From positions 1 through 59,191 of IMG/VR virus record IMGVR_UViG_3300042889_001673: a stretch of DNA of 59,191 nt. The stretch is one strand, 5' to 3'. A program made the position numbers and the translations under genes. Source of the stretch: a virus. The notes under the pieces were generated by a model. It did no database searches. It worked only from the letters and a program-made list of their open reading frames with translations, and was not told the DNA's origin. Positions 27,855 to 57,294 of the stretch are shown here, in pieces (position 1 is the stretch's first letter; every line of letters begins with the position of its first letter).

Positions 27855-28544
27855 ATGGTAATATATCAAACTATAAATCTTATTACTAATATAAAGTATA
27901 TAGGTAAAGATAAAAATGATAATCCCAATTATATTGGATCTGGTACTAATTTAAAAATAGCTATTAAAAAATATGGTAAATATAACTTTAAAAAAGAAAT
28001 AATAGAATATTGTAACAGTATTGATCATCTTATAGAACGAGAAACATATTGGTTAAATTATTATGACGTAGAAAATAATCCTAACTTCTACAATAAAACA
28101 AACAAACCATTCGGCAACTCAGGACTATCAGAGGAAACAAAACAAAAAATCAAAGAATCAGCTAAAAAACGTATATGGAATCCTGAGTGGGGTAAATTAA
28201 GTGGACAAGCTAGAATAGGATTAAAACGAGATACTAAAAATGGAAATGAACATGGTAATTACGGTAAAGTAAAATCACAAGAACATATAACTAATATGTC
28301 TTTATCTAAGCTAGGTAAAACTCATACTCCTGAATGGTGTTTAAAAATTAAAAATAATAGACAAAAATGTATAGAAGTTAAATCTAGACCTATACAGCAA
28401 TTAGATAGAAACAACAATATTATTCAAGAATTTAAATCTATATCTGAAGCAAAAAAAATAACAGGTATCAGTGGTATTTCAGATGTAGTAAGAGGAGCTA
28501 CAAAAACAGCAGGAAATTTTAAATGGAAATATATTAATAAATAG
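27855..28544 (+). CDS. GIY-YIG homing endonuclease with NUMOD/IENR domains
   Basis: This 229-residue selfish DNA endonuclease is inserted between the exonuclease and helicase genes. The N-terminal GIY-YIG-type catalytic module reads VIYQTINLITNIKYIGKD, with the later KYGKYNFKKEIIE and the LIERETYWLNYY Glu segment. A NUMOD3-like helix (SEETKQKIKESAKKR) and a C-terminal DNA-recognition repeat (QLDRNNNIIQEFKSISEAKK) follow. Such genes copy themselves into homologous sites lacking them by double-strand-break repair. It carries its own promoter-like motif. The base composition is more AT-rich than its neighbours. Confidence 0.85.
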   Translation: MVIYQTINLITNIKYIGKDKNDNPNYIGSGTNLKIAIKKYGKYNFKKEIIEYCNSIDHLIERETYWLNYYDVENNPNFYNKTNKPFGNSGLSEETKQKIKESAKKRIWNPEWGKLSGQARIGLKRDTKNGNEHGNYGKVKSQEHITNMSLSKLGKTHTPEWCLKIKNNRQKCIEVKSRPIQQLDRNNNIIQEFKSISEAKKITGISGISDVVRGATKTAGNFKWKYINK

Positions 28545-31213: not shown

Positions 31214-31225
31214 TATATATTTATT
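31214..31225 (+). promoter_or_regulatory. TATTTAT promoter-like motif
   Basis: TATATATTTATT lies 14 bases before the HNH endonuclease start. Confidence 0.5.
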
Positions 31226-31238
31226 GCAAATAACATAT

Positions 31239-31802
31239 ATGAAAAAATGCAATAAATGTTTAAAGGAATATCCATTAGATGGTTTTAGTAAATTTAAAAG
31301 AAATAAAGATGGATATATGTCATACTGCAAAGTATGCCACCGTGTTCAAGTTAAAGCTAATAGGAGTAAATATAAAGAATACGATAAAGAATACGCTAAA
31401 CTTCAATGGCCTAAAAATAAAGATAGAATTAGAGAAGAATACAGGGAGTATTTTAAAATATATAAACGTGAACGTAGAAAAGATCCTATATTTAGATTAA
31501 AAGAAAATATGCGTAATTACTTCTATCAATCTTTCATAAAGAATAGAAATGCTAAGCGTGATTCCATTTTAAGCTATATAGGATGTTCATTCGATGATTT
31601 AAAAATATACTTAGAAAATAGTTTCGATGAAAATATGTCTTGGGAAAACTATGGTTCATATTGGGAAATAGACCATAAAGATCCTATATTTAACTTCTCC
31701 ACATCGGAAGAAGATTTATATAAATGTTGGAATTATAGTAATTTACAACCCCTAACAATATCAGAAAATAGAATAAAACATAATAAAATACAAACAAAAT
31801 GA
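31239..31802 (+). CDS. HNH homing endonuclease between nrdB and nrdA
   Basis: This 187-residue endonuclease has an N-terminal zinc ribbon (KKCNKCLKEYPLDGF, YCKVCHRVQ), a basic linker, and a C-terminal HNH domain: YWEIDHKDPIFNF, then CWNYSNLQPLTISENRIKHN. I start it at ATG 31239 because the upstream TTG at 31224 overlaps the promoter-like motif. Its stop overlaps the nrdA start (ATGA). It is a selfish gene sitting in a conserved reductase operon. Confidence 0.85.
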   Translation: MKKCNKCLKEYPLDGFSKFKRNKDGYMSYCKVCHRVQVKANRSKYKEYDKEYAKLQWPKNKDRIREEYREYFKIYKRERRKDPIFRLKENMRNYFYQSFIKNRNAKRDSILSYIGCSFDDLKIYLENSFDENMSWENYGSYWEIDHKDPIFNFSTSEEDLYKCWNYSNLQPLTISENRIKHNKIQTK

Positions 31803-33541: not shown

Positions 33542-33552
33542 ATATATTTATT
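33542..33552 (+). promoter_or_regulatory. TATTTAT promoter-like motif
   Basis: ATATATTTATT lies 14 bases before the endonuclease start at 33566. Confidence 0.5.
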
Positions 33553-33565
33553 GGAAACAATAATT

Positions 33566-34201
33566 ATGATAGGAATATACAAAATTACAAATCCAAGAGG
33601 TGAAGTTTATGTGGGATTGTCAAAGAATATAGAATTGCGATGGCAATCCCATAAAAATTTCCAATTCCATAAAAACAATAAATTAAAAGAATCTTTACTA
33701 CGAGATAATATTGAACTTCATATATTTGAAGTAATTGAAGAAGTAGATATATCGGATTTAAGACAATATGAAGCTAATGCTTTACTTCGAAAACGAGAAA
33801 GGTATTGGATTAATAAATTAAATTCATTCAATATAGGACTAAATGAAAACGGTGGTGGTAGTGGATGCGGTTCCCATACAGACGAATCTAAACAAAAGAT
33901 TTCTCAATCTTTAAAGGGTAAACCAAAACCATTAGACTTCGGAGCTAAAAGAAAAAAATGGCAACATACGGACGAGTGGAAGGAAAAAGTAAAATCAGCT
34001 CCTAGATGCCCTGTACTAATGCTTAAAGATAATATAATAGTTCAAGAATTTCCAAATCAACAATCCGCAGCTGATCATTTAGGAGTAAGAAAACAAGCAA
34101 TATGGAATATGTTAAACGGATTTAAAAATAGAAATGGTGTTCCTATCATCCAAGTAAGAGGATACACATTTAAATATAAAGAAAAAAATAGTATAAAATG
34201 A
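33566..34201 (+). CDS. GIY-YIG homing endonuclease after nrdA
   Basis: This 211-residue endonuclease has a canonical N-terminus, IGIYKITNPRGEVYVGLSKN, then the conserved Arg (LRWQSHKN) and Glu (RERYWINKLNS) positions. NUMOD3-like helices (TDESKQKISQSLKGK) and a C-terminal helix-turn-helix repeat (VQEFPNQQSAADHLGVRKQ) follow. I use ATG 33566 rather than TTG 33551, which lies in the promoter-like motif. It is the third homing gene within 6 kb and flanks nrdA on the right, as the HNH gene does on the left. Confidence 0.88.
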   Translation: MIGIYKITNPRGEVYVGLSKNIELRWQSHKNFQFHKNNKLKESLLRDNIELHIFEVIEEVDISDLRQYEANALLRKRERYWINKLNSFNIGLNENGGGSGCGSHTDESKQKISQSLKGKPKPLDFGAKRKKWQHTDEWKEKVKSAPRCPVLMLKDNIIVQEFPNQQSAADHLGVRKQAIWNMLNGFKNRNGVPIIQVRGYTFKYKEKNSIK

Positions 34202-35653: not shown

Positions 35654-36115
35654 ATGAGTAAATTTCAATCAACAAAATTATTCGACGGATTCAGTTGTGT
35701 ATTCCGTCAATGGAAAGCAGAAGGTACACATTGTCGTTTCCTTCATGGATATGGAATATCATTTAGAGTATGGTTCGAAGGAGAATTAGACGAACGTAAT
35801 TGGGTTTGGGATTTTGGAGGAATGAAGCGCGCTAACGGAACTATAGATGGGATGAATCCTAAAGCGTGGATGGATTATATGTTCGACCATACAACTATAG
35901 TAGCAGAAGATGATCCAGGATTAGCGGGATTTAAAACAATGGATCAAATAGGTATAGTCCAATTAAGAGTAATTCCAGCAGTTGGAGCAGAACAATTTGC
36001 AAAATATATCTTTGAAAAACTAAATACATTCGTTCAAGAAGAAACAGAAGATAGAGTTAAAGTTATAAGAGTAGAATTTATGGAGCACAGTAAGAATACT
36101 GCTATTTATGAATAA
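35654..36115 (+). CDS. queD: QueD-like 6-carboxytetrahydropterin synthase
   Basis: This 153-residue protein of the PTPS/QueD superfamily would turn dihydroneopterin triphosphate into 6-carboxytetrahydropterin, step two of preQ0 synthesis. The catalytic-Cys region GTHCRFLHGYGISF (C27, H31), the strand FRVWFEGELDERNWVWDFG, the FDHTTIVAEDDP motif and the terminal VEFMEH Glu are visible. Of the three zinc His in E. coli QueD, two positions read Phe17 and Tyr33 here, so the metal site must differ. The neighbours dpdA, queC, queE and folE support the pathway role. Confidence 0.82.
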   Translation: MSKFQSTKLFDGFSCVFRQWKAEGTHCRFLHGYGISFRVWFEGELDERNWVWDFGGMKRANGTIDGMNPKAWMDYMFDHTTIVAEDDPGLAGFKTMDQIGIVQLRVIPAVGAEQFAKYIFEKLNTFVQEETEDRVKVIRVEFMEHSKNTAIYE

Positions 36116-36386
36116 AAAGTTTGAAAAAAATTACGAAAAGTCACGTCGCAAGATACTTCGTGAAGAATATGAAAAAAATAATCCTCGTATTCCAACAGAA
36201 GACGAATTATTAGAAAATAATAGTTATTGGGATATTGATTACTTAGAAGAAGCAAACAAAAAAACTAACCAAGGTATTAAGTATTGGAAAGATAGATATA
36301 ATACTGCCTCGGGTAATATGGGAAAATGGTATTGTCAAATACGAATTGATTTATTAAAGAAAAAATTAAAACACTATGAAAATTAG
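36108..36386 (+). CDS. Small hypothetical protein between queD and dpdA
   Basis: The 92-residue, highly charged, Lys- and Glu-rich helical protein (NYEKSRRKILREEYEKN) overlaps queD by 8 bases and dpdA by 11 bases. The double overlap places it firmly within the 7-deazaguanine transcript. No domain is recognised. It could be a partner of the modification enzymes. Confidence 0.55.
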   Translation: MNKKFEKNYEKSRRKILREEYEKNNPRIPTEDELLENNSYWDIDYLEEANKKTNQGIKYWKDRYNTASGNMGKWYCQIRIDLLKKKLKHYEN

Positions 36387-37161
36387 TCACGAGCTTCCCT
36401 TATGCTTCATGCATTACAGTACTAAATGGAATGATTATGAATATTGCCTTCCTCATTTAGTAGACGAATATGATCAATATAGAATACATTTTCAACTAGC
36501 TCGTATCTATAAACGCTTCATTATAATGGATAATGGATTATTTGAAGGAGTAAAACACACACAAAAAGATCTATTATCTAAAATAAATCTAATACGACCA
36601 AACATATTCATAGTACCAGATGCTTGGAATGATTCAACTCAAACAATAGTGAATGCTAAGAGTTGGATGAAAAATAATAGAGCTAAAATATCAGATGAAG
36701 TTGAATTAATGGCGGTATTACAAGGTAATACCTTAGCTGAATTACTAACAACATATCAAACGCTAGTAGATTTAGGATATAAACACATAGCATTTAATCA
36801 TTCTAGTATTGCATATCAAGATATGTATCCTAACATTGAACCTCTTAAAGCATCAATGTATGGTAGAATGGAATTAATTAGAAAACTAGTAGAAATGAAA
36901 GCTATAGTTAACTCAAATTACCACCATTTATTAGGATGTTCATTACCACAGGAATTTATGGGATATAAAGATTGGAAATTTATTAAATCAGTAGATACGT
37001 CTAATCCTATCCTAGTAGGGGCTGAAGGTAAACGCTACACAGATAGTGGTTTAAATTGGAAACCTAAAGAAAAACTAGAATATTACTTTGAGAAAGATTT
37101 GAGTGGGCAAAAAGAAGATATTATGTTTAACGTGCAAAAATTTAAGCAATTTATAAAATAA
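36376..37161 (+). CDS. dpdA: DpdA-like DNA guanine transglycosylase
   Basis: This 261-residue protein has the shape of the phage DpdA branch of tRNA-guanine transglycosylases, which swap guanine in DNA for preQ0 or a derivative. Markers are MDNGLFEG (D52), FIVPDAWNDSTQT (D82), LMAVLQGNTLAEL (the QG loop), YKHIAFNHSS, HHLLGCSLPQEF and the candidate nucleophile segment SVDTSNP (D207). It is shorter than tRNA-TGT (~370) and lacks its zinc Cys cluster, as expected for phage DpdA. It is flanked by queD and queC. The assignment is by motif and context, with no experiment. Confidence 0.78.
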   Translation: MKISHELPLCFMHYSTKWNDYEYCLPHLVDEYDQYRIHFQLARIYKRFIIMDNGLFEGVKHTQKDLLSKINLIRPNIFIVPDAWNDSTQTIVNAKSWMKNNRAKISDEVELMAVLQGNTLAELLTTYQTLVDLGYKHIAFNHSSIAYQDMYPNIEPLKASMYGRMELIRKLVEMKAIVNSNYHHLLGCSLPQEFMGYKDWKFIKSVDTSNPILVGAEGKRYTDSGLNWKPKEKLEYYFEKDLSGQKEDIMFNVQKFKQFIK

Positions 37162-37166
37162 AAGTT

Positions 37167-37445
37167 ATGGAAAGAATGATATCATTATTTGATTATTTAG
37201 GCTATGCAGCAGGAAATGAATTAGGACAAAACGTAGCTGACTATGCTAAAATTAGAAAAGTAAAATGTGGAATGCGTTCTGTATCTACTCTTAAATATAA
37301 AGGACCCGTTATGTTATATACTAAGGAATTTATAGATGAATATTTCGCAGTAGAAAAATTATTTAATGGTAAAGATTATACAGAGATTAATACCGAATTA
37401 ACAGAAGATAGTTTTAAAGCAGCAGCAGTAGAGTCAGTATATTAA
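37167..37445 (+). CDS. Small hypothetical protein in deazaguanine cluster
   Basis: The 92-residue protein lies 5 bases after dpdA and before queC. It begins MERMISLFDYLGYAAG and contains AKIRKVKCGMRSVS. I do not recognise the family. Proximity suggests co-expression with the modification genes. Confidence 0.55.
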   Translation: MERMISLFDYLGYAAGNELGQNVADYAKIRKVKCGMRSVSTLKYKGPVMLYTKEFIDEYFAVEKLFNGKDYTEINTELTEDSFKAAAVESVY

Positions 37446-37502
37446 TAAAGGTTTGCAACTCCATAACCTATAATACCGGAGTATACAATTTAATTATTTA
37501 AA

Positions 37503-38390
37503 ATGAAAAAACAAGCAGTATTAAGTTTATCTGGTGGAATGGATTCATCCACACTATTACTTCACCTATTAGCTGAAGGTTATCAGGTAACAGCATTAGG
37601 ATTCGACTACGGACAAAAACACAAAGTAGAATTAGAGCGTGCTACTGAATTAGTAGAGTATCTAAATACTAACAGATTAACACACACAGATCATGTTCCT
37701 GGAGGGTTTGTTCAAGCATTTCCTGTAGTAAAATTTCAAATCATCAAATTAGATGGCTTATCTCAACTATTAAACTCAGCTTTAGTAGAAGGTGGTGCTG
37801 ATGTGCCAGAAGGACACTACGAACAAGACAACATGAAAGAAACAGTTGTTCCTAATCGTAATAAAATATTCAGTTCATTAATTCAAGCAGTAGCATTATC
37901 ACTTGCAACAAAAAATATTGGTGATGATTGTACTATAGGACAAGAAGTAAAAATTGCATTAGGAATTCACGCTGGTGATCATGCTATTTATCCTGACTGC
38001 AGACAAGAATTTAGAGATGCAGATATGGAAGCATTTAAATTAGGTAACTGGGATAGTGAATTAGTATCATTCTATACTCCATACCTAGATACTGATAAAT
38101 TCGGTATATTACAAGATGGATTAGCAGCATGTAATAAATTAGGGCTTGACTTTGATGAAGTATATAAGCGCACAAACACATCTTATAAACCAATTAAATT
38201 ATCAAATGGTATATGGCTATCTGATTATAAATCAGCATCATCAGTAGAGCGTGTAGAAGCATTTATTAAATTAGGTAGACCAGACCCTGTACAATATGGT
38301 GAAATATTAAAAGGTAATGGAATAAGAATAGTGAAATGGGCAGAAGTAAGAGCAGCCGTAAAAGAAGTACTAGACGCACAAAAATCGTAA
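37503..38390 (+). CDS. queC: QueC-like 7-cyano-7-deazaguanine (preQ0) synthase
   Basis: This 295-residue ATP-dependent ligase would turn 7-carboxy-7-deazaguanine into preQ0. The N-terminal PP-loop is SLSGGMDSSTLLLHLL, followed by ALGFDYGQKH, and then by EQDNMKETVVPNRNKIF and HAGDHAIYPDCRQEF, both typical of QueC. The C-terminal zinc cluster of four Cys in E. coli QueC is absent: the matching segment reads SDYKSASSVERVEAF. The protein is longer than E. coli QueC (231). It is central to the preQ0 cluster. Confidence 0.88.
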   Translation: MKKQAVLSLSGGMDSSTLLLHLLAEGYQVTALGFDYGQKHKVELERATELVEYLNTNRLTHTDHVPGGFVQAFPVVKFQIIKLDGLSQLLNSALVEGGADVPEGHYEQDNMKETVVPNRNKIFSSLIQAVALSLATKNIGDDCTIGQEVKIALGIHAGDHAIYPDCRQEFRDADMEAFKLGNWDSELVSFYTPYLDTDKFGILQDGLAACNKLGLDFDEVYKRTNTSYKPIKLSNGIWLSDYKSASSVERVEAFIKLGRPDPVQYGEILKGNGIRIVKWAEVRAAVKEVLDAQKS

Positions 38391-38411
38391 ACAAAAATCA
38401 AATATACAGTT

Positions 38412-38642
38412 ATGAGTTATCAAACAAAAGTTCGTGCTAATTACATGAACAGAACAGCAAAGTTAGCCTTCTTTAAAGCCCGTAAACGCACAGGCGACGT
38501 TACTAAAGTAGCAGAAACAGTAGGTTATTCAATTAGTCACGTATCTAATACAATTAGTGGTACTAGGAGAATTAACAATACAATTGCAAATGCAATGTAT
38601 TCACTAACACGCAGACGCATCAAAAACAGTGAGTTAGCATAA
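38412..38642 (+). CDS. Small helix-turn-helix DNA-binding protein
   Basis: The 76-residue basic protein has a helix-turn-helix at residues ~28-60 (DVTKVAETVGYSISHVSNTI, then SGTRRINNTIANAM), like Xre-type or phage Cro-type regulators. It lies right after queC and is followed by a strong terminator, so it closes the queD-dpdA-queC message. It could regulate this cluster or host genes. The target is unknown. Confidence 0.65.
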   Translation: MSYQTKVRANYMNRTAKLAFFKARKRTGDVTKVAETVGYSISHVSNTISGTRRINNTIANAMYSLTRRRIKNSELA

Positions 38643-38656
38643 GCTAATCCATACCC

Positions 38657-38696
38657 AAGATCTCAGTTGCCCTGTAAGGCAATTGGGATCTTTTTT
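38657..38696 (+). terminator. Strong Rho-independent terminator
   Basis: AAGATCTCAGTTGCC pairs with GGCAATTGGGATCTT (15 bp with two G-U pairs, loop CTGTAA) and is followed by TTTTTT. It is the longest terminator stem in the window and separates queC-HTH from the next small genes. Confidence 0.88.
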
Positions 38697-38708
38697 AAAC
38701 TTAACATT

Positions 38709-38834
38709 ATGATAGAATTTATAGAACATACCTTAGGATTATGTGGAGAAAAACATTTTAGTATTGCAGCAGTAATATTGGATTGGCAAAACTTTAGCCC
38801 TATATTAAACTATATTAAATCATTATTCAAATAA
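38709..38834 (+). CDS. Very small hypothetical protein
   Basis: This 41-residue peptide (MIEFIEHTLGLCGEKHFSIA, then AVILDWQNFSPILNYIKSLFK) fills the gap after the terminator, four bases before the next ATG. A hydrophobic middle suggests a membrane-associated peptide. No known function. Confidence 0.5.
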   Translation: MIEFIEHTLGLCGEKHFSIAAVILDWQNFSPILNYIKSLFK

Positions 38835-38837
38835 AAC

Positions 38838-38996
38838 ATGGAGGACAAACATATGAAGTGTATTAAAAGTAATAAAACCGGAAACATCATCCGAGTAAGT
38901 AATCAACAAGCAGATCAAACTGTAGGTAGGGAATGGAAATTCGTATCTAAATCAGAATGGAAGAATAAAGATAAAGTTGAAAAAAGTAACGTATGA
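38838..38996 (+). CDS. Very small hypothetical protein
   Basis: This 52-residue basic peptide has an alternative start at ATG 38853, eight bases after a good GGAGG site (38840-38844). That would give 47 residues (MKCIKSNKTGNIIRVSNQQA). Its stop overlaps the next start (ATGA). The shorter form may be the true one. It contains a Trp-rich end (GREWKFVSKSEWKNKDK). No family recognised. Confidence 0.5.
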   Translation: MEDKHMKCIKSNKTGNIIRVSNQQADQTVGREWKFVSKSEWKNKDKVEKSNV

Positions 38997-39250
38997 GTTA
39001 TATAGTTAAGTTTATACTAGTAATGTTTGTTACGATAGTAGCAGATGTTTGTTGGACCTACTATTTTCTAAATGTAGAAGAACGTAAGCCAATGGCTGCA
39101 GGTATTTGGTCAGCACTTATTATAGTAGCGAGTGCTTTTATAACAACTAGCTATGTAGCAGATAGATCATTAGTACCAGCAGCAGTTCTAGGAGCATTTA
39201 TAGGAACTGCAGGTACAGTATATTATAAAAAGAAAAAAGAAAATAAATGA
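38993..39250 (+). CDS. Small three-helix membrane protein upstream of queE
   Basis: The 85-residue membrane protein has segments ~4-24 (IVKFILVMFVTIVADVCWTY), ~35-55 (MAAGIWSALIIVASAFITTS) and ~62-78 (PAAVLGAFIGTAGTVYY), then a basic tail (KKKKENK). The pattern recurs in small phage membrane proteins of unknown role. Its stop overlaps the queE start (ATGA), so it is co-translated with queE. A precursor transporter or holin-like role is possible but unproven. Confidence 0.6.
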   Translation: MSYIVKFILVMFVTIVADVCWTYYFLNVEERKPMAAGIWSALIIVASAFITTSYVADRSLVPAAVLGAFIGTAGTVYYKKKKENK

Positions 39251-40149
39251 GTAAAATAGAATCAAATAAGCTACTAATCAGTAGCGACTTCTATTCCGTC
39301 CAAGGAGAGGGAATAAGCAGTGGAATACCATCATACTTCGTTCGTTTAGGATTATGTAATCTAACTTGCGGTATGTCTAGACCATTCACTAATAACCTAT
39401 TAAAAGAAGCAGCATTAGCTGATGGTGAAATATTCAAAGGTGATTTAGAATTAGAAGGTAAAGCAACTTGGACTTGTGATAGTACATCTCAGTGGTTATG
39501 GAGAGGAGTAAATCAAGACTTTCAATATCTAATTGATCAATGGAAAGAACAAGGTATATATGATGATATTTTAAATGGTAATATCCATATCATTTGGACA
39601 GGTGGTGAACCAACAATTAAAGGACATCAAGTAGCTATTGCCGGTTTTATTAAATATTGGGCTAATTATGTAGAAGATAATAAAGAAGGAGATACAGAAG
39701 TTCATACATTTGATCGTGAAACAAATATGCATTCTATTCATTACAAACCAGTGAATTCATTTCATGAGATAGAAACAAATGGTACAAACTATATTGAAGA
39801 GTATTTATTCGGTAAACTAAATCAAATCAACTGTTCACCTAAGTTATCTAATTCAGGTATGACAGCTAAACAAAGAATAGTACCTGAAGCAATAGAGCGC
39901 ATTAAACAACATTCCAATTATCAATTTAAATTTGTAATCAGTAATGAAGAAGATGTTGAAGAATTATTTCGTGACTTTGTCGTACCATTTAGCATACCTC
40001 TTAAGAATGTAGTTTGTATGCCAGGACTAGATAGTCAAACCGACTTTCATGAGCGTACTCAATTCGTATTGGAAATGGCTAAAAAATATAAATTTAGAGG
40101 ATTAACAAGATTACACATCTCAGCTTGGGATAAAACACTAAACGTATAA
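39247..40149 (+). CDS. queE: QueE-like 7-carboxy-7-deazaguanine synthase (radical SAM)
   Basis: This 300-residue radical SAM enzyme would make 7-carboxy-7-deazaguanine from 6-carboxytetrahydropterin. N-terminal FYSVQGEGISSGIPSYFVRL and the SAM-binding IIWTGGEPT are typical of QueE. The cluster Cys are C37 and C41 (GLCNLTCG) and C77 (WTCDST). Normally C-x3-C-x2-C is contiguous, but here 35 residues separate the second and third Cys, as in some divergent QueE forms. The C-terminal FKFVISNEEDVEELF and the VCMPG segment fit the family. It ends in a repeated junction sequence. Confidence 0.85.
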   Translation: MSKIESNKLLISSDFYSVQGEGISSGIPSYFVRLGLCNLTCGMSRPFTNNLLKEAALADGEIFKGDLELEGKATWTCDSTSQWLWRGVNQDFQYLIDQWKEQGIYDDILNGNIHIIWTGGEPTIKGHQVAIAGFIKYWANYVEDNKEGDTEVHTFDRETNMHSIHYKPVNSFHEIETNGTNYIEEYLFGKLNQINCSPKLSNSGMTAKQRIVPEAIERIKQHSNYQFKFVISNEEDVEELFRDFVVPFSIPLKNVVCMPGLDSQTDFHERTQFVLEMAKKYKFRGLTRLHISAWDKTLNV

Positions 40150-40153
40150 TATG
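40132..40153 (+). repeat. Junction repeat, copy 1
   Basis: AAAACACTAAACGTATAATATG spans the end of queE and the start at 40151. The same sequence recurs at 40372 and 40604, each time across a gene junction. Confidence 0.8.
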
Positions 40154-40381
40154 AAAACACAAAAATTAGAGGTTACACCTCTTTACGATCCAAAAACACT
40201 TCAGCCTTCAAACTACATAGTTAGTAGAAAAGTTCCTGATACTTTACCATTGAATGAATTAATTGATCCTAATTACGGGAAACAATTTAATGCTATCTTT
40301 ATGGGAACTGAAGAGGAATGTTTAGAATTTGTTGAGAAATACGGCATTACAGATTCTTCAAACATTTTGGTAAAACATTAA
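40151..40381 (+). CDS. Small hypothetical protein bounded by junction repeats
   Basis: The 76-residue protein starts inside junction repeat 1 and ends inside repeat 2 (its stop TAA is part of ATTAAACG). It contains TPLYDPKTLQPSNYIVSRKV and a Glu-rich C-terminal part (TEEECLEFVEKYG). No family recognised. Being framed by identical repeats, it looks like a gene cassette. Confidence 0.55.
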   Translation: MKTQKLEVTPLYDPKTLQPSNYIVSRKVPDTLPLNELIDPNYGKQFNAIFMGTEEECLEFVEKYGITDSSNILVKH

Positions 40382-40393
40382 ACGTATAATATG
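40372..40393 (+). repeat. Junction repeat, copy 2
   Basis: AAAACATTAAACGTATAATATG differs from copy 1 at one position and holds the start of the gene at 40391. Confidence 0.8.
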
Positions 40394-40621
40394 ACACAAG
40401 AAGAATTAGATTATAGACGTAAAAGAGCAACTAAAGTAGCAGCAAAAGATATTATTGAGGAAGGTATAAATAGATATGTTAATGACGGTATTAGATTTGG
40501 ATTCTTTAGTGTTGATGATGATCCAAAACAAATAATAGCAAATGTTATTGACAGATTAATTGAATACGAAGAATATGAATGGGCAAGTGCATTAGAAAAA
40601 TATAAAACATTAAACGTATAA
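40391..40621 (+). CDS. Small hypothetical protein bounded by junction repeats
   Basis: The 76-residue helical acidic protein (EELDYRRKRATKVAAKDIIE, VIDRLIEYEEYEWASALEKY) ends KTLNV, the same four last residues (TLNV) as queE, because the junction repeat encodes both ends. No domain known. Confidence 0.55.
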   Translation: MTQEELDYRRKRATKVAAKDIIEEGINRYVNDGIRFGFFSVDDDPKQIIANVIDRLIEYEEYEWASALEKYKTLNV

Positions 40622-40623
40622 TG
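40604..40623 (+). repeat. Junction repeat, copy 3
   Basis: AAAACATTAAACGTATAATG is the same repeat lacking the last AT. It holds the start of the Tat-signal gene at 40621. Confidence 0.8.
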
Positions 40624-40848
40624 AATAATAGAAGAGATTTCTTAAAGATGTTTACTATGGCTTCAATAGCTGTAGTAGCACCTATTCCCAAAATATTATA
40701 TGCTCCTGAAAGATTAACTATACCTTTAATAACAGGTGATGGTGATATGATATATGGAGTAAATGGAGTAGAGCGAATGAGAATATATGCTAATGGAAAC
40801 GTTGGAATAGGTTGTATTAATCCTTCTTATGAACTTAAAATAAAATAA
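40621..40848 (+). CDS. Mini-protein with Tat signal fused to a tail-fibre repeat
   Basis: This 75-residue protein joins two unrelated parts. Residues 1-28 form a twin-arginine signal: NNRRDFLK (consensus RRxFLK), a hydrophobic stretch FTMASIAVVAP and a possible cleavage site ILYA. Residues ~46-75 (VNGVERMRIYANGNVGIG, then CINPSYELKIK) copy the ERMRITGxGNVGIGTTSPSASLHV repeat of the fibre gene at 1719. It would be exported by the host Tat system as a folded fibre fragment. It starts within junction repeat 3. A role in receptor masking or superinfection exclusion is speculation. Confidence 0.65.
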   Translation: MNNRRDFLKMFTMASIAVVAPIPKILYAPERLTIPLITGDGDMIYGVNGVERMRIYANGNVGIGCINPSYELKIK

Positions 40849-40849
40849 T

Positions 40850-41017
40850 ATGACGATCAATAAAGACGAACTATTTAAACTCTATATGGAGTGGGTCAAT
40901 AAAGTAACTGAAGAATGTGATTGGAAAACTTCATTTGGCCCAGAAGAGATCGTACATTCAATAGCAACAATATTAGAACAAAATCCCCAACTAATAAATA
41001 ATGAAGTTACTAACTAA
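40850..41017 (+). CDS. Very small hypothetical protein
   Basis: This 55-residue acidic helical protein (DELFKLYMEWVNKVTEECDW, FGPEEIVHSIATILEQNPQL) overlaps the folE start by 17 bases, so it is coupled to folE. No known family. Confidence 0.5.
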   Translation: MTINKDELFKLYMEWVNKVTEECDWKTSFGPEEIVHSIATILEQNPQLINNEVTN

Positions 41018-41633
41018 ATCAAACGGTAGTCTATCCCGTACACCAGAAGAAATAGAACAAATGATCAATAATGCTACAATAGCATACGCTAACTTCCTTA
41101 CAGCAGTTGGATTTGACTATACAGCAGATAGACAAACCGAAGATACACCTCGTCGTGTAGCTAAAGCATGGCTTAAGGACCTAATTGTAGGATCCGTAAC
41201 AAACGAACCAAACATCACTACATTCCCTAATGATGAAGGATATGATGGATTAGTAATCCAATCAGGTATTCCTATCACTAGTATGTGTGCACATCACAAC
41301 CTAGCATTTACTGGATTCGCTACAGTAGCATACGTTCCAGGTGAAAATGTAATCGGATTGTCAAAATTAAATCGTATCGTTGAGTGGTTCGCTCGCAGAC
41401 CACAAATGCAAGAATCATTAACACAACAAATACATGATTATCTTGCTAGCAAGATGGACTGTAAATCAGTAGCAGTAAGTATCGCTTGTAAACATACATG
41501 CTGCTCACATAGAGGTATTAAACACGCCTCAGTAATGTCAACAAATAAATTCAGTGGAGTATTTATGGAAAAAGATAATTTAATCCGTGAAGAATTACTA
41601 TCAGCAATTGAAATGAACGGAACTAAATTCTAA
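41001..41633 (+). CDS. folE: GTP cyclohydrolase I
   Basis: This 210-residue zinc enzyme opens the GTP ring to give dihydroneopterin triphosphate, the first step toward preQ0 (and folate). Zinc ligands C96, H98 or H99 (CAHH, normally CEHH) and C167/C168 (KHTCCSHRGI) are present. The signature VIGLSKLNRIVEWFARRPQMQESLTQQI is complete. With queD, queE and queC nearby, the phage can make preQ0 from the host GTP pool. A tRNA-only or folate role is less likely given dpdA. Confidence 0.93.
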   Translation: MKLLTKSNGSLSRTPEEIEQMINNATIAYANFLTAVGFDYTADRQTEDTPRRVAKAWLKDLIVGSVTNEPNITTFPNDEGYDGLVIQSGIPITSMCAHHNLAFTGFATVAYVPGENVIGLSKLNRIVEWFARRPQMQESLTQQIHDYLASKMDCKSVAVSIACKHTCCSHRGIKHASVMSTNKFSGVFMEKDNLIREELLSAIEMNGTKF

Positions 41634-42331: not shown

Positions 42332-42865
42332 ATGTTAAACGCAAAACAAATATTAGAAGAAGGATTATTACAATTAGAAACAGCACAAGGTAAGCCAGCA
42401 CAAGTTGGATACGATCTATCACTTAAAGCAGTAAGTAAAATTGGCTCTAGTATAGTTGTAGGAGGAACTTTTAATAAATATGCTAAAATCGGTAAAGTAT
42501 TAAAAGATAAAACTGAATTAACTACTTATATTCCAATTGAAACTATTAATCTAGATGGAGATAAGGGATGGTTACTATACGAAGGTGTATATGACATTAC
42601 ATTTCACGAAGGATGTAAAATACCAGAAAATCGAGTAGCATTCATTAAACAACGCTCATCTCTCTACCGCAATGGTGCTATAATCAATAGCCCTGTATTT
42701 GATCCCGGCTTTGAAACAGCAAATATGGGTACTATATTATACGTACATGAAACAATATTTATTGAAGAAAATGCACGTGTAGCACAGATATACTTCCACG
42801 AATGCAATGGCGCTGATCTATACAACGGACAGTGGCAAAACGATAAGCAACGTAGCTCACTATAA
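42332..42865 (+). CDS. dUTPase/dCTP deaminase-like protein
   Basis: This 177-residue trimeric dUTPase-fold protein has AQVGYDLSLKAV near residue 24, the QRSSLYRNG motif at 107-115 (the R-S-S signature of dCTP deaminases) and SPVFDPGFE (120-128). It either deaminates dCTP or hydrolyses dUTP to supply dTTP precursors and keep uracil out of DNA. I cannot choose between the two from sequence. It is followed by a terminator. Confidence 0.8.
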   Translation: MLNAKQILEEGLLQLETAQGKPAQVGYDLSLKAVSKIGSSIVVGGTFNKYAKIGKVLKDKTELTTYIPIETINLDGDKGWLLYEGVYDITFHEGCKIPENRVAFIKQRSSLYRNGAIINSPVFDPGFETANMGTILYVHETIFIEENARVAQIYFHECNGADLYNGQWQNDKQRSSL

Positions 42866-44263: not shown

Positions 44264-44962
44264 ATGGGTAGTTTAAAAGTAGGTACAACATTAAGGGATA
44301 CAATAGGTCAATTAAAATTAGGAAGTAGCAATGTAACAGCTATGTATAACGGTAGCGTACAAGTATTTCCATCAGCGACTACAACAACAACTAGCACAAC
44401 TACTACAACAACAACGGCAGCACCAACTACAACGACAACAACAACTACAACCACGGCAGCACCAACAACAACTACAACAACAACTACGACTACAACGGCT
44501 GCACCTACGACTACAACAACAACAACTGCGGCACCAACTACAACTACAACAACAACGGCTGCACCAACAACAACTAGTACAACTACAAGTACAACAACTG
44601 TTCCTCCATCAACTGTAGACGTTACTCTACAATATGATGGTTTAGCATGGGAAATTTACGCCTCAATACCTTTCTCATCCCCATCAACACTTGATGATTT
44701 AAATTTCTATGGAACAGCAACTGGTTATTCTTCAGCAGGATGTATTAATGTCACAAGCACGCAAGGCTTCTCAATTACTTTATTAGCAGGTAATACTTCG
44801 ACACATACTGAACTTGGAACAAACCCACCATTAGATTGGGAAAGTATGAAAGTTACAACATTGTATGTAGAGGGTGAATTAATAACTACTACTCCACAAA
44901 GTATAGTAGTAAACGGCCATACTTATATAATAACAGGATACGGAAATTGCTTTAACGCATAA
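44264..44962 (+). CDS. Virion protein with long poly-Thr stalk
   Basis: This 232-residue protein has an N-terminal domain (GSLKVGTTLRDTIGQLKLGS), then about 78 residues of (T)n-AAP repeats (roughly residues 38-115), then a C-terminal domain of about 115 residues (VTLQYDGLAWEIYASIPFSS, ending ITGYGNCFNA) of unknown family. Six TAAP-type units make a stalk like a mucin. It is coupled to the fibre gene (4-base gap) and closes with a terminator. It could be a decoration or adhesin whose stalk is glycosylated. Confidence 0.7.
   Translation: MGSLKVGTTLRDTIGQLKLGSSNVTAMYNGSVQVFPSATTTTTSTTTTTTTAAPTTTTTTTTTTAAPTTTTTTTTTTTAAPTTTTTTTAAPTTTTTTTAAPTTTSTTTSTTTVPPSTVDVTLQYDGLAWEIYASIPFSSPSTLDDLNFYGTATGYSSAGCINVTSTQGFSITLLAGNTSTHTELGTNPPLDWESMKVTTLYVEGELITTTPQSIVVNGHTYIITGYGNCFNA
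44378..44604 (+). repeat. ACA/ACT/ACG microsatellite-like repeat (poly-Thr stalk)
   Basis: About 225 bases of ACN codons with interspersed GCAGCACC units encode the Thr stalk. Short, imperfect units suggest expansion by slippage, tempered by codon mixing. Confidence 0.85.
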
Positions 44963-48643: not shown

Positions 48644-48934
48644 ATGACAATCAAACCGTTACACAACCACGTCGTGGTTAAACAAGTAGATGAAACCGAA
48701 ACAATGTATGGTAACATCATCGTACCAGATGCCGGTAAAGAAAAACCACTAATGGGTGAAATTATCGCTACAGGCCCCGGCATCATCAACATGAATGGAA
48801 TCTTAATTCCAAACACACTATTAGTAGGTCAAAAAGTAGTATTTCCATCATTTGGAGGACAACGCGTCTCTATAGGTGGAGAAGATTACCTAATCTACAA
48901 AGAACAAGACATATTCGCAATTCTAGAAGACTAA
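48644..48934 (+). CDS. groS: Co-chaperonin GroES
   Basis: The 96-residue GroES forms the lid of GroEL. IKPLHNHVVVKQVDETET, the mobile loop MYGNIIVPDAGKEKP, GEIIATGPG and VGQKVVFPSFGG are clear. T4-type phages normally bring only a GroES analogue (gp31); here it comes with a complete GroEL 11 bases downstream. Confidence 0.93.
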   Translation: MTIKPLHNHVVVKQVDETETMYGNIIVPDAGKEKPLMGEIIATGPGIINMNGILIPNTLLVGQKVVFPSFGGQRVSIGGEDYLIYKEQDIFAILED

Positions 48935-48945
48935 AACCAATATAA

Positions 48946-50577
48946 ATGAGTAAAATAATCAGTTTCGACCGCGAAGCAAAACAAAGGCTTCAAGCAGGTA
49001 TCGACAAAGTAAACAAAGCAGTATCCGTTACAATGGGTCCCTTCGGACGTAACGTATTAATTGAAAAAGAACATGGCCAAGTAGCATCCACTAAAGATGG
49101 AGTTACCGTTTCAAGAACCATTACATTGGAAGATCCAATTGAAAACATGGCGGCTACAGTAATTAAACAAGCAGCAGAGAAAACAGTAAGTGCAGCAGGT
49201 GATGGAACAACAACATCAACCGTATTAGCTCATTCAATCGCTTCACAAGCTCTAGATGCTACATCATACCCATCAACAAACGCAACTCAAGTAAAGCGTG
49301 GTATCGAACAAGCAGTTAAAGTAGTAGTAGCGGAATTAAAGAAAATGTCTCGCCCTATCGAAAGCGAAGATCAAATTAAACAAATCGCTACATTATCAGC
49401 TAATGGTGATGCTGAAATAGGTGAATTAGTAGCTACAGCATTAGATAAAGTAGGAAGAGACGGAGTCGTTACAGTAGAGGAATCGCGTACTGGGGAAACT
49501 AGTTTAGAAGTAGTAGAAGGTATGCAGTTTGATAGAGGTTACAAGTCACACTACATGGTAACAGACAACAACACAATGTCTGCTAACCTAACAGATGCAT
49601 TAGTATTATTAGTAGATGGTAGGATTTCAGCAGTGAAAGATCTATTACCGATTTTAGAATCAGTATCATCAGATAATAAATCATTATTGATTATAGCTGA
49701 AGATATTGATGGTGAAGCACTAGCAACATTAATTGTAAATAAGATGAGAGGTATTTTGAAGGTAGCAGCTGTTAAAGCACCTGACTTTGGAGAACGTCGC
49801 TTATTAATCTTAGAAGACATTGCAACCATCACAGGTGGAACAGTAGTATCACCTCAAAAGGGAATGAAATTAGATAAATTCAATAAAACCTGGTTTGGAT
49901 CTGCACGTACAATTACTGTAGGTAAGGATACAACTACAATTATTGATGGTAAAGGAGATACAACAGCAATCGAAACACGTGTATTAGAATTAAAAGCACA
50001 AATCGACAAATCAAGTTCACCATATGAAATTGAGAAACTACAAGAGCGCCTAGCTAAAATGATAGGTGGAGTAGCTATTATCAATGTAGGAGGAGGAACG
50101 GATATTGAGATGAAGGAAAAGAAAGATCGCCTTGATGATGCTCTACAAGCAACACAAGCGGCATTAGATGAAGGTATATTACCTGGAGCTGGAGTAGCAT
50201 TATTAAATGCTAGAAAAGCACTTAAAGCGGATTTAGATGGTAAAAATGATATATCTAAAGGAGTAGCAATAGTGTTTGCAGCTTGTGGAAAACCATTTAA
50301 ACAAATTCTAGAAAACGCAGGTGAAGATGCTAGTGAATGGTTAATGTCCTTAAACATACATAGCGAAAACCCAGATCTAGTACCTAATATTGCAAAAGGA
50401 GCAGCAGTAGATGCCTTTGAAGCAGGTATTATTGATCCTACTAAAGTAGTACGTTCAGCATTAGAAAATGCAGCTGCAGCAGCAGTAACATTACTAATGA
50501 CAGAATGTGTAATCCATGACAAACCTGATACTAAGAAAAAGGTAGAAGACTTTGGGATGGCAGAGATGGGAATGTAA
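48946..50577 (+). CDS. groL: Chaperonin GroEL
   Basis: This 543-residue ATP-driven folding chamber is full length. ATP site [15 protein letters not shown] and [19 protein letters not shown], the hinge and apical domain with [13 protein letters not shown], the helix segment [22 protein letters not shown] (with the ATPase Asp) and LPGAGVALL are intact. The C-terminus [10 protein letters not shown] has only a trace of the usual GGM repeats. Phage-encoded GroEL is rare. Together with GroES it can fold the phage's large capsid or tail proteins during host shutoff. Confidence 0.95.
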
Positions 50578-54052: not shown

Positions 54053-55543
54053 ATGAAAGAAGGTTATATTGAGCAATCAAAACGTAAGAAAATCTTACTA
54101 CTATGTGATGATATTAGAATGACATCTGGTATCTCAACAATGGCGCGAGAAATGGTTATTGGAACTGCCCACCATTTTAATTGGGTAAATGTAGGTGGAG
54201 CTATTAATCACCCTGATCAAGGTAAACGCTTTGATATTAATGGTGATACCAATACCCATGCAGGAATATCAGATGCTAGTGTATATTTGTATCCTATTAA
54301 TGGATATGGAGATCCTACATTTCTAAAACAGATGATAGCATTAGAAAAACCAGATGCACTAATGATGTTTACTGATCCAAGATATTGGATTTGGTTGTTT
54401 CAAATGGAGCATGAAATAAGAAAGAAAATGCCTATTATATATTTAAATATATGGGACGATTTACCTTATCCCATGTATAATAAACCATACTATGAGTCAT
54501 GTGATGCCCTATTAGCAATCAGTAAACAAACTGAAAATCTAAATAGAGCAGTATTAGGACCAGAATTATCAGCTGAGAAAGTAATTAAATATGTTCCTCA
54601 TGGTATTAATGAAAGTATATTCTTTCCTATTACTACTGAACATACTGAATATTTATCCTTGCAAGAATTTAAAAAACAATTATATGGAAATAAATCGTAC
54701 GACTTTACTGTATTATATAATGCGCGTAACATCCGTCGTAAATCGGTTCCTGATTTAATGTTAGCTTGGAAGATATTCATTGATGAACTTCCAGAAGATA
54801 AAGCTAAAAAATGCGCTTTAGTATTACATACTCAAATCGCAGATGAAAATGGTACTGACTTACAAGCAGTAAAAGATATGCTATTTGGATATGAAGAGAA
54901 ATATAACATCATATTTGATCAGAATAAGTATCCTGCTAACATGATGAATTTACTCTATAATGCTACAGATGTGAATGCATTAGTTAGTAGTAATGAAGGT
55001 TGGGGATTATCATTAACAGAAGCAATGATGTGTGGTAAACCAATCATAGCAACAGTAACAGGCGGAATGCAAGACCAAATGCGTTTTGAAGATGAAAATG
55101 GTGAATGGGTTAAATTCACTGAAGAATTCGGTTCTAACCATAGAGGTAAATATAAAAAACATGGTAAATGGGCGTTTCCCGTATTCCCATCTAACCTATC
55201 AATTGTAGGTTCAATTCCAACCCCTTATATCTTTGATGATAGAGCAGAACCATTCGATATTGCTGAACAAATTCAAGAGGTATATGCCTTAAAAACAAAT
55301 CAAATCGAAGAGTATGGATCTCATACTAGAGGATTTCAAACATATGAAGAAGTTTGTAAAGCAGCTAGAGATTGGGTTACATCAGATGAATCAATGCAGT
55401 CAGCAAGATGGATGTGTAAGAATATAATTGATGGTATAGATGAAACATTCGCTAACTGGCAACCACGTCATTCATTTGAATTAATTCAAGTAGAAACTCC
55501 AAAACAACCAAAACATTACAATAAATACGTTATAGCAAAATAA
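54053..55543 (+). CDS. Glycosyltransferase, GT4-type
   Basis: This 496-residue GT-B fold enzyme has an N-terminal domain (LLLCDDIRMTSGISTMAREM) and the C-terminal donor-binding domain: VPHGINESIFFPI, VLYNARNIRRKSVPDLMLAW, NALVSSNEGWGLSLTEAMMC with the E-x7-E-type pair, then GKPIIATVTGGMQDQM. The sugar and acceptor are unknown. It opens a run of at least four sugar-transfer genes, which suggests a glycan built stepwise on DNA or on a virion protein. It is two bases from the next gene. Confidence 0.85.
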   Translation: MKEGYIEQSKRKKILLLCDDIRMTSGISTMAREMVIGTAHHFNWVNVGGAINHPDQGKRFDINGDTNTHAGISDASVYLYPINGYGDPTFLKQMIALEKPDALMMFTDPRYWIWLFQMEHEIRKKMPIIYLNIWDDLPYPMYNKPYYESCDALLAISKQTENLNRAVLGPELSAEKVIKYVPHGINESIFFPITTEHTEYLSLQEFKKQLYGNKSYDFTVLYNARNIRRKSVPDLMLAWKIFIDELPEDKAKKCALVLHTQIADENGTDLQAVKDMLFGYEEKYNIIFDQNKYPANMMNLLYNATDVNALVSSNEGWGLSLTEAMMCGKPIIATVTGGMQDQMRFEDENGEWVKFTEEFGSNHRGKYKKHGKWAFPVFPSNLSIVGSIPTPYIFDDRAEPFDIAEQIQEVYALKTNQIEEYGSHTRGFQTYEEVCKAARDWVTSDESMQSARWMCKNIIDGIDETFANWQPRHSFELIQVETPKQPKHYNKYVIAK

Positions 55544-55544
55544 T

Positions 55545-56855
55545 ATGAAACAATTAATCGTTATAAGTTGCCCAATAGACACATATAGTGGATATGGTGC
55601 TCGCGCAAGAGATATAGTTAAATCGCTTTTAAAGACGGATAAATACGAGGTAAAGATCCTATCACAACGATGGGGTAATACGCCTTTTGGATTTTTAAAA
55701 GCAGACAATGCTGAAGATAAACAGATATTAGACTGTATATTATCATCAAATGAATTACCAAAACAACCAGACATTTGGATTCAACACACAGTACCAAATG
55801 AATTCCAAGCAATAGGAAGATATAATATTGGTATTACAGCAGGAATTGAAACAACACTATGTGATATTTCTTGGATTGATGGAGTTAATAAAATGGATTT
55901 AACATTAGTATCCTCTGAACATGCTAAAAGAGTATTTGAAGTATCAGCATTTGAACAGAGAGATAAAGCTACTCAACAACTAATTAAAACTATTAAACTA
56001 GAAAAACCAGTTGACGTATTATTTGAAGGAGTAGACACTAGCATATACGAAAAAATAGATGCTATAAATGAGAGTCAAGTATGGGAAGTATTAGATACTA
56101 TTCAAGAAGATTTTAATTTCCTATATGTTGGACATTGGCTTCAAGGTGAATTAGGACAAGATAGAAAAGACACAGGTATGTTAGTTAAAACATTCCTTGA
56201 AACATTTAAAGGAAAAGGTAAAAAACCTGGACTAATTATGAAAACTTCTACTGCTACCTATTCTGTAATGGACCGAGATGAAATATTAGATAAAATTCAA
56301 AGATTAAGACTATTAGTAGGTGATCAAGATTTACCAAATATTTACTTGCTACATGGTGAATTAACAGATGGAGAAGTAAATGAACTATATAACCATCCTA
56401 AAGTAAAAGCACACGTATCATTTACTAAAGGTGAAGGATATGGCAGACCATTATTAGAAGCTACTATCAGCCAGAAACCAGTAATTGCTCCTAACTGGAG
56501 TGGACAAATTGATTTCTTAGATAAAGATATGTCTGTATTATTAGCGGGTGAAATAAAACAAATTCATCACTCCGCAGTAGTAAAAGATATGTTATTACCT
56601 GAAAGTGGATGGTTTACTGTTGATTATGAGAAAGCATCTGCTGTATTAACAGACGTTTATAAAAATTATAAAAAGTACATTGATGGGGCAAAGAAACAAG
56701 CTTATCGTTCACGTACAGAATTTAGTTTAGATAAAATGGCTGAAAAATTAAATTCAATAATTGATACAAAGATACCTAAACAAGTAGCACTTAAACTACC
56801 TCAGCTTAAAAAAATTGAATTACCTAAACTTAAAAAAGTAGATGATGCAGAGTAA
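55545..56855 (+). CDS. Glycosyltransferase, GT4-type
   Basis: This 436-residue GT-B enzyme begins CPIDTYSGYGARARDIVKSL (N-terminal glycine-rich loop), has LTLVSSEHAKRVFEVSAF and VDVLFEGVDTSIYEKI, and the donor motif HVSFTKGEGYGRPLLEATIS followed by KPVIAPNWSGQIDFL. It ends with a Lys/Pro-rich tail (LPQLKKIELPKLKKVDDAE), which could hold it to nucleic acid or a partner protein. Its DNA-like basic tail is worth noting but proves nothing. Confidence 0.85.
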   Translation: MKQLIVISCPIDTYSGYGARARDIVKSLLKTDKYEVKILSQRWGNTPFGFLKADNAEDKQILDCILSSNELPKQPDIWIQHTVPNEFQAIGRYNIGITAGIETTLCDISWIDGVNKMDLTLVSSEHAKRVFEVSAFEQRDKATQQLIKTIKLEKPVDVLFEGVDTSIYEKIDAINESQVWEVLDTIQEDFNFLYVGHWLQGELGQDRKDTGMLVKTFLETFKGKGKKPGLIMKTSTATYSVMDRDEILDKIQRLRLLVGDQDLPNIYLLHGELTDGEVNELYNHPKVKAHVSFTKGEGYGRPLLEATISQKPVIAPNWSGQIDFLDKDMSVLLAGEIKQIHHSAVVKDMLLPESGWFTVDYEKASAVLTDVYKNYKKYIDGAKKQAYRSRTEFSLDKMAEKLNSIIDTKIPKQVALKLPQLKKIELPKLKKVDDAE

Positions 56856-56899
56856 TACAGGAGCCGTAGTTTATACTTATCAAAATAACAACTTAAATT

Positions 56900-57292: not shown

Positions 57293-57294
57293 AT

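Follow-up and report, generated by a model that had tools for sequence, protein, structure and literature searches.

The IMG/VR virus record IMGVR_UViG_3300042889_001673 (59,191 bases, possibly a fragment; this whole stretch of DNA is called the window here) carries, between positions 35654 and 41633 and all on the + strand, open reading frames (ORFs) for QueD, a DpdA-like protein, QueC, QueE and FolE (Table 1). Small ORFs overlap some of them, at 36108-36386 (with queD and dpdA), 38993-39250 (with queE) and 40850-41017 (with folE). An earlier interpretation made from the letters alone (the sequence-only reading) had described this arrangement, five genes within 6 kb with several overlaps, and the ORFs and profile matches agree with it. 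The tail genes of the window resemble those of T4-type phages (by eye), no tRNA genes were found in it, and 11.5 kb of it had zero megablast matches among phage records.

Table 1. Genes of the putative 7-deazaguanine cluster and adjoining genes in the window (aa, amino acids).
Gene product	Position	Strand	Basis
QueD-like (PTPS family), 153 aa, HCxxxHGY	35654..36115	+	PTPS 1.8e-15; phrog_2389 3.9e-40; residue alignment
92-aa protein, function unassigned, overlaps queD and dpdA	36108..36386	+	relatives in 31/80 window-type and 0/83 other loci
DpdA-type DNA guanine transglycosylase (predicted), 261 aa, minimal TGT barrel	36376..37161	+	AlphaFold2, Foldseek, VIA-align, invariant columns
92-aa protein, directly 3' of dpdA	37167..37445	+	relatives in 55/80 window-type and 8/83 other loci
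QueC, 295 aa, S/D/S/S replacing C(x)8CxxCxxC	37503..38390	+	PF06508 6.5e-36; residue counts; model compared with 3bl5 and 2pg3
85-aa hydrophobic protein (by eye), overlaps queE	38993..39250	+	present in 9/80 window-type loci
QueE-like radical SAM protein, 300 aa, CX3CX35C	39247..40149	+	phrog_2076 4.1e-35; NCBIfam QueE models 9e-10 and weaker, below cut-off
FolE, GTP cyclohydrolase I, 210 aa	41001..41633	+	GTP_cyclohydroI 4.2e-48; alignment
Xanthine-guanine phosphoribosyltransferase (XGPRT)-like protein, 139 aa	41636..42055	+	PRK09177 xanthine phosphoribosyltransferase 2.7e-11, below its cut-off
dCTP deaminase/dUTPase-like protein (DCD), downstream of cluster, no pathway membership claimed	42332..42865	+	DCD 1.6e-12; PRK02253 1.8e-24, below cut-off

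The 261-residue protein encoded between queD and queC was unmatched in a Pfam search, and its sole match in PHROGs was phrog_19058 (3e-30), which is annotated as 'unknown function'. As a sequence-profile search of the PDB had not led to a tRNA-guanine transglycosylase (TGT) either, folds were compared. The AlphaFold2 model, built with 42 homologues, had a mean predicted local distance difference test score (pLDDT) of 94.8; the top ranks in Foldseek were TGT chains (2pot, 1.6e-8) and DpdA 7ui4 (4.7e-8), and VIA-align superposed 228-233 residues on arcTGT, bacterial TGT and DpdA 7ui4 (Z 17-18, root-mean-square deviation about 3-3.4). Thirty-four columns are invariant across the 42 rows, including D52, D82, H184 and D207, and one of the conserved Asp residues is presumably the nucleophile. 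D52, D82, H184, G187 and D207 align with the DpdA of Escherichia phage CAjan, which is genetically required for DNA modification (excerpt of PMC6884629). By its modelled fold, the 261-residue protein is a member of the TGT/DpdA superfamily. The sequence-only reading had proposed profile searches for deciding this; these stayed below the curated cut-offs, and the protein was placed inside the superfamily by its fold. As the profile matches are weak, the assignment is based on the fold, the order of the motifs and the genome context.

Homologues of this protein were found in 18 isolate records, all of which (18/18) belong to the groups of Flavobacterium phage vB_FspM_immuto_2-6A (NC_055915; immuto below) or Campylobacter phage CP220, with about 32-35% of residues identical in alignments covering 98-99% of the length (35% for immuto, the closest isolate, and about 32-34% for the CP220 group). 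We take the small DpdA type of the window, immuto and CP220 to be the one called DpdA3, although no relevant paper was found for this name. The DpdA3 subfamily reportedly permits complete replacement, and Cui and colleagues are said to have concluded in 2023 that insertion is post-replicative. The CP220 homologue is annotated as 'hypothetical protein', and Hutinet et al. (2019) put Campylobacter phages in a group without DpdA; the DpdA2 type was missed in PSI-BLAST with the DpdA of 9g (excerpt of PMC6884629).

Similar clusters can be found in many uncultivated viruses. A search with the window alignment gave at least 574 relatives in IMG/VR (599 matched stretches), the best 80 of which are referred to as window-type loci; the immuto query gave 98 relatives (102 stretches, best 80 kept) and the CP220 query 5 relatives in 10 stretches. 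Among the 80 window-type contigs, many of which are cut short near dpdA, QueC is encoded in 73, QueD in 57 and QueE in 49, and QueC is also present in 25 of 83 other loci. In the better window-type loci, dpdA is surrounded by genes for QueD, QueC, QueE and FolE, often together with phosphoribosyltransferase (PRTase) and DCD genes. The weaker ones (e.g., L086-L110) have DpdA proteins that are 50-57% identical, and their QueC is often nearer that of immuto. Immuto-type loci with enough flank mostly possess FolE, dpdA, formyltransferase, kinase and QueF genes in a row. The ratio of nonsynonymous to synonymous substitution rates (dN/dS), determined against up to five relatives, lay between 0 and 0.31 for QueD, DpdA, QueC, QueE, FolE and DCD and reached 0.46 at most for the PRTase, thus below 0.5 for every gene pair tested. 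The cluster genes are under purifying selection, and this, together with the recurrence of QueC, QueD and QueE in related contigs, shows that the cluster is not a chance arrangement. Within the cluster (36376-40149), dpdA is near-identical to that of L002 (dS 0.01) and the QueC (0.29) and QueE (0.43) genes are diverged, a pattern of mosaic exchange.

The QueC of the window deviates from its E. coli homologue at one site in particular. The last four cysteines of E. coli QueC (C188, C197, C200, C203) form the zinc motif, and S, D, S and S stand in their place in the window. All four are lost in 93/93 phage rows of 230-330 residues (68 from window-type loci, 24 from immuto-type loci and the window itself, with 77 distinct sequences among the 92 loci); in a first alignment of the window and 70 loci with more than 200 residues, S/D/S/S was present in 69/71 rows, the remaining 2 being unalignable there. 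Residues Q37, H39, E42, V96, P97, R99, N100, Y131, K165 and Y189 are retained in all 93 rows and Y35 in 92 of them; the motifs SGGxDS and VPxRN occur in 92/92 loci and YPDC in 90/92, and YxQxHxxE is present as well. According to an excerpt of Libby et al. (2026, PMC13329287), Y35, R99, Y131 and Y189 are essential in E. coli QueC, zinc is required, C(x)8CxxCxxC is the hallmark of canonical QueC, and 7-amido-7-deazaguanine (ADG) is the QueC intermediate (the numbering given there for SGGxDS and L75 mismatches the MG1655 QueC used by us; the other positions fit). Judged from the alignments, the catalytic residues of the phage QueC remain and the zinc site is gone, and the enzyme would act independently of zinc. 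The structural model, whose pLDDT averages 84.8 and is lowest near residues 90-110, has the QueC structures 3bl5 and 2pg3 as its best matches. A tree calculated from 50 QueC rows with the zinc columns left in places the zinc type on one side of a branch with support of 93/88, which fits one loss. No report of a zinc-less QueC was found among the listed titles and abstract openings on zinc in QueC or QueD, and none is mentioned in the excerpt of PMC13329287.

QueD appears to be altered in a comparable way. The window protein keeps the equivalents of E. coli C27, H31, D70, H71 and E110 and has lost those of the zinc ligands His 16 and His 33. One of three zinc histidines is thus retained, the first being replaced by F, I or L and the third by Y, in 55/55 window-type and 52/52 immuto-type loci with a QueD of more than 100 residues; HCxxxHGY is found in all 107 and HGH in none, and the catalytic Cys, Asp-His and Glu are retained in the window and in all of these loci. 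In a second alignment the column of the first histidine is a gap and not F, i.e., this substitution is alignment-dependent. The His preceding the Cys in HCxxxHGY could be a substitute ligand. Note that the queries were mostly of the HGY type and may have missed canonical QueD; indeed, L080 possesses a canonical three-His QueD, the only PTPS of that record, in the slot upstream of dpdA, as if the two QueD types were interchangeable. The HGY type is the only PTPS in four Fastidiosibacteraceae/Thiotrichales genomes searched, and in the QueD of marine group III archaea the third His alone is missing. Poseidoniales combine a zinc-less QueC with a canonical QueD, and phage phiSM has the reverse combination; the zinc losses in QueC and QueD are therefore separable.

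QueE was not matched by Pfam up to E 0.1. All three cysteines of its cluster motif are present, as CX3CX35C instead of CX3CX2C, and the spacer between the second and third cysteine has 35 residues in 42/45 loci and 7 in 3/45; in other phages it has 2, 6, 7, 22 or 40 residues and varies in HVTV-1, nt-1 and phiSM. FolE possesses a GTP cyclohydrolase I domain in which the residues that we take to be the zinc ligands are retained in the alignment. The sequence-only reading had spoken of a complete preQ0 pathway, and this holds for the gene count; three of the four enzymes are, however, atypical, and their treatment as ordinary enzymes has to be corrected, as the zinc ligands of QueC and QueD are lost and the QueE spacer is long. 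The XGPRT-like gene had been overlooked.

What a zinc-less QueC makes can be judged from cellular genomes. A search of genome contigs with QueC gave 122 relatives in 199 stretches, and among the best 80 CxxCxxC was absent in 59 (four of them shorter than 230 residues and possibly cut) and present in 21; the scan patterns were derived from the zinc-less alignment, so these counts are no census, and several contigs (e.g., L207-L211) resemble phage contigs binned with bacteria. The zinc-less form occurs in Pirellulaceae, Poseidoniales, marine group III archaea and Fastidiosibacteraceae. In 17/17 genomes tested it is the only full-length QueC (other matches were short and below 30 bits), and a TGT match was present in 16/17. 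Of the 16 genomes checked for QueF (genome G025 with contig L221 was left out), nine had a match over the cut-off, namely 9/9 bacteria and 0/7 archaea, and all 7 archaea have a TGT match. The substrate of QueF is preQ0, which is also the base that archaeal TGT inserts (excerpt of PMC6884629). The presence of QueF in the bacteria and of TGT in the archaea beside a zinc-less QueC implies that this form very probably makes preQ0.

The Fastidiosibacteraceae QueC rows nest in the phage branch of the 50-row tree. Among the Fastidiosibacteraceae/Thiotrichales contigs L212 and L214-L220, QueC of L212, L215, L217 and L219 lies inside the phage branch, QueE of L212, L215, L216 and L219 joins the immuto-type phages, and QueD of this set groups with the phage type. 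These bacteria may have exchanged queuosine genes with phages, in either direction.

As the window is possibly a fragment and the absence of a gene from it proves little, larger relatives were searched. QueF over the cut-off and Formyl_trans_N were found in 0/14 window-related records of 106-183 kb (four of the weaker kind) and in 2/2 immuto-type records. The ArcS domain PF17884 was absent from the same 14 records as well as from the window, G001 and G003 (0/17 in total); it was detected in phage nt-1 (1/1), which is reported to encode ArcS (excerpt of PMC6884629). QueF matches in G000, G001 and G003-G005 were below the cut-off and are folE by place and frame (G002 had none), and BLAST with QueF of immuto, HVTV-1 and phiSM and with the immuto formyltransferase gave nothing in the window, G003, G004 and the first 80,000 bases of G001. 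No amidotransferase is fused to QueC (the search did not extend to a separate glutaminase gene), and the genes characteristic of dG+ phages (Gat-QueC, ArcS or QueF-like) were not found. The absence of QueF, formyltransferase and ArcS from the large relatives makes an unreduced base, preQ0 or ADG, most likely. The end point is thus likely a base not reduced to preQ1 (the searches did not cover a preQ0 hydrolase such as DpdC), and preQ0 is more likely than not to be that base. The idea of the sequence-only reading that the pathway may end with preQ0, as no queF or amidotransferase gene had been seen, has therefore survived the search of the 14 records, with ADG as a further candidate.

ADG as the product is possible, but we regard it as unlikely. 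The cluster would be the same, and QueC would stop at the amide or a later enzyme would hydrate preQ0. CP220, with a DpdA about one-third identical to that of the window, and CPt10 have 100% of deoxyguanosine (dG) replaced by dADG (excerpt of PMC8306585), QueF is not needed for ADG, and ADG lies on the way to preQ0 in the QueC reaction itself. It would be tempting to connect the lost zinc ligands with an arrest at the amide; however, CP220, with dADG in its DNA, has a QueC that keeps its four cysteines, so that zinc loss does not track ADG, whereas immuto-type phages with zinc-less QueC have QueF, whose known substrate is preQ0, and so do 9/9 bacteria with zinc-less QueC alone. As to the extent of the exchange, the 'some guanines' of the sequence-only reading may be too modest. 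By analogy with the complete replacement in CP220, the exchange in the window phage may be extensive and concern probably many or all guanines.

As every exchange sets one guanine free and one GTP is spent on each base made, the balance would be closed by salvage. The XGPRT-like protein probably salvages guanine to GMP. A PRTase gene starts within 150 bases after folE in 19/34 window-type loci and ends within 150 bases before folE in 51/69 immuto-type loci.

Besides exchange in DNA, the modified base could enter at the nucleotide level, i.e., the transglycosylase could act on free deoxynucleotides, a phage kinase would form the triphosphate, and the polymerase would insert it with complete replacement. 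For Campylobacter phages it has been proposed that the polymerase uses a modified dGTP (excerpt of PMC6884629), and the 261-residue enzyme has little beyond the barrel. A P-loop kinase is encoded directly downstream of dpdA in CP220 and near dpdA in immuto (32% identical), and in a direct protein query its relatives were found in 11/12 window-related records of more than 100 kb. In these records, however, they lie tens of kilobases from the cluster and may be ordinary dNMP kinases; no relative was found in the window, G001, G003 (both fragments) and G018, and the thymidylate kinase family PF02223 was not detected above the cut-off in 20/20 records (13 had weaker matches). The kinase distribution keeps this route open, but as the fold of the transglycosylase matches enzymes acting on polynucleotides, we regard it as improbable.

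Another proposed function of phage preQ0 genes is to boost queuosine in host tRNA. This was put forward for phages with preQ0 genes but without DpdA (excerpt of PMC6884629), and in bacteria enzymes of these types appear to function in tRNA modification. That the window cluster does nothing else is very improbable, as its conserved transglycosylase belongs to a distinct small family adjoining preQ0 genes, the related phages CP220 and CPt10 have modified DNA (excerpt of PMC8306585), and QueF was sought and not found (QueA and QueG were outside the search). A role of QueC in protein deazaguanylation, as for Cap9 or QatC, is hardly credible: Foldseek does list Cap9 (9nto) after QueC, but QatC lacks YxQxHxxE, VPxRN and YPDC (excerpt of PMC13329287), all of which are present in the window QueC, Cap9 and QatC keep cysteine motifs that are lost in it, and the gene context is that of a base pathway with DpdA. 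No CD-NTase or QatABD partners were recognised by eye among the cluster ORFs (no dedicated search was made).

Taken together, the genes most probably form a cluster for the 7-deazaguanine modification of DNA, with the small type of DpdA that immuto and CP220 also have, as the sequence-only reading had supposed for preQ0 genes combined with DpdA. FolE, QueD and QueE would convert GTP to 7-carboxy-7-deazaguanine, and QueC without the usual zinc ribbon would convert this to ADG and further to preQ0. The transglycosylase would then swap guanines in phage DNA for the base, and the replaced guanines would block restriction enzymes and so protect the phage. The freed guanine could return to GMP via the XGPRT-like protein beside folE, replacing the spent GTP. 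Clusters of this kind are already known; what is new is the variant whose QueC and QueD lack the canonical zinc ligands.

Several points speak against this interpretation. The Foldseek TM-scores of the transglycosylase are moderate (0.56-0.65 by query length), all 50 VIA-align rows displayed are TGT or DpdA chains, so the scores of unrelated barrels do not appear, and Z was at least 8 for 939/1000 chains. DpdA profiles match it weakly (PADLOC 0.0019; NCBIfam NF041059 0.06, with 12.2 bits against a cut-off of 200) and the immuto homologue not at all, and a profile of 42 DpdA relatives retrieved no TGT chain from the PDB sequences but unrelated weak matches. As zinc is stated to be required (excerpt of PMC13329287), a zinc-less QueC might differ in product or need another cofactor. 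The zinc ligands retained in FolE count against a pathway shaped by zinc scarcity, which we do not favour as the driver. With respect to the cells, G025 probably represents a phage contig that was binned with a bacterium, leaving 16/16 genomes with zinc-less QueC alone, genome G027 has no TGT match, and the argument presupposes sufficiently complete draft genomes. In 15/34 window-type loci with folE a PRTase was not found, so salvage is not obligatory. Finally, the product and the modification of the DNA of this virus are predicted from genes.

Of the two 92-residue proteins, the one overlapping queD and dpdA was matched by neither Pfam nor PHROGs up to E 0.1. The one directly downstream of dpdA, whose only Pfam match was below the cut-off (0.01), belongs to no known family and is a possible partner of the transglycosylase. 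A 76-residue helix-turn-helix-like ORF at 38412-38642 matched TGT in PHROGs at 0.027 only, which was judged noise, and the likeness of the 85-residue protein to a small membrane protein of nt-1 is one of hydrophobicity alone (by eye). Elsewhere in the window, GIY-YIG-like and HNH-like ORFs (33551-34201, 27855-28544, 31224-31802), homing endonucleases by eye, adjoin ribonucleotide reductase and replication genes. The ORFs at 44264-44962 and 4803-5657 contain long Thr-rich stretches of low complexity, with TASYA-type repeats in adjacent ORFs, and the right end (54053-58652) encodes glycosyltransferase-like and FkbM-methyltransferase-like proteins (by eye). GroES-like and GroEL-like genes lie at 48644-50577 (by eye); in immuto, groES and groEL are downstream of its cluster.

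For a broader interpretation the arguments appear to us evenly balanced. QueC free of zinc, and QueD whose metal site has been dismantled or rebuilt, would be working preQ0 enzymes in 92 phage loci, and probably in hundreds of phages, the QueC form extending to several cellular lineages. In that case QueC could do without the motif taken to define it, phages may be the source of the queuosine genes of one bacterial family, and in the phages complete guanine replacement may be coupled to guanine recycling by XGPRT. The phage proteins provide a large natural set of QueC under purifying selection that lacks the zinc motif and keeps the residues shown to be essential (excerpt of PMC13329287), so that the part played by zinc in nitrile formation can be tested directly. 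Furthermore, they offer compact enzymes for DNA base exchange, and the presence or absence of QueF and formyltransferase is a genomic contrast for predicting which 7-deazaguanine a phage carries.

In comparison with known systems, the window QueC shares SGGxDS, YxQxHxxE, VPxRN, YPDC and Y189 with canonical QueC (cluster 1 of Libby et al. 2026, excerpt of PMC13329287) and differs from it in lacking C(x)8CxxCxxC. CAjan, which has DpdA and dPreQ0 and was placed in the 'preQ0 or ADG' group by Hutinet et al. 2019 (excerpt of PMC6884629), possesses the same five gene functions and no amidotransferase. However, it is not one of the 18 records that the window DpdA matched, it has a longer DpdA, the zinc sites are retained in its QueC and QueD, and its QueE spacer is 2. 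CP220 has a DpdA homologue about 33% identical and, like the window, no QueF over the cut-off, whereas its genes are scattered, its QueC has four cysteines, its QueD has three zinc His (the first misaligned in the second alignment), and the kinase gene is directly downstream of dpdA. In immuto, genes for QueF, formyltransferase and kinase, none of which was found in the window, adjoin dpdA, queC lies about 10.5 kb from queD, and the QueE spacer is 7 compared with 35 in the window. Nevertheless, immuto shares with the window a DpdA that is 35% identical, a zinc-less QueC that is 60% identical, the HGY variant of QueD, and the PRTase gene beside folE.

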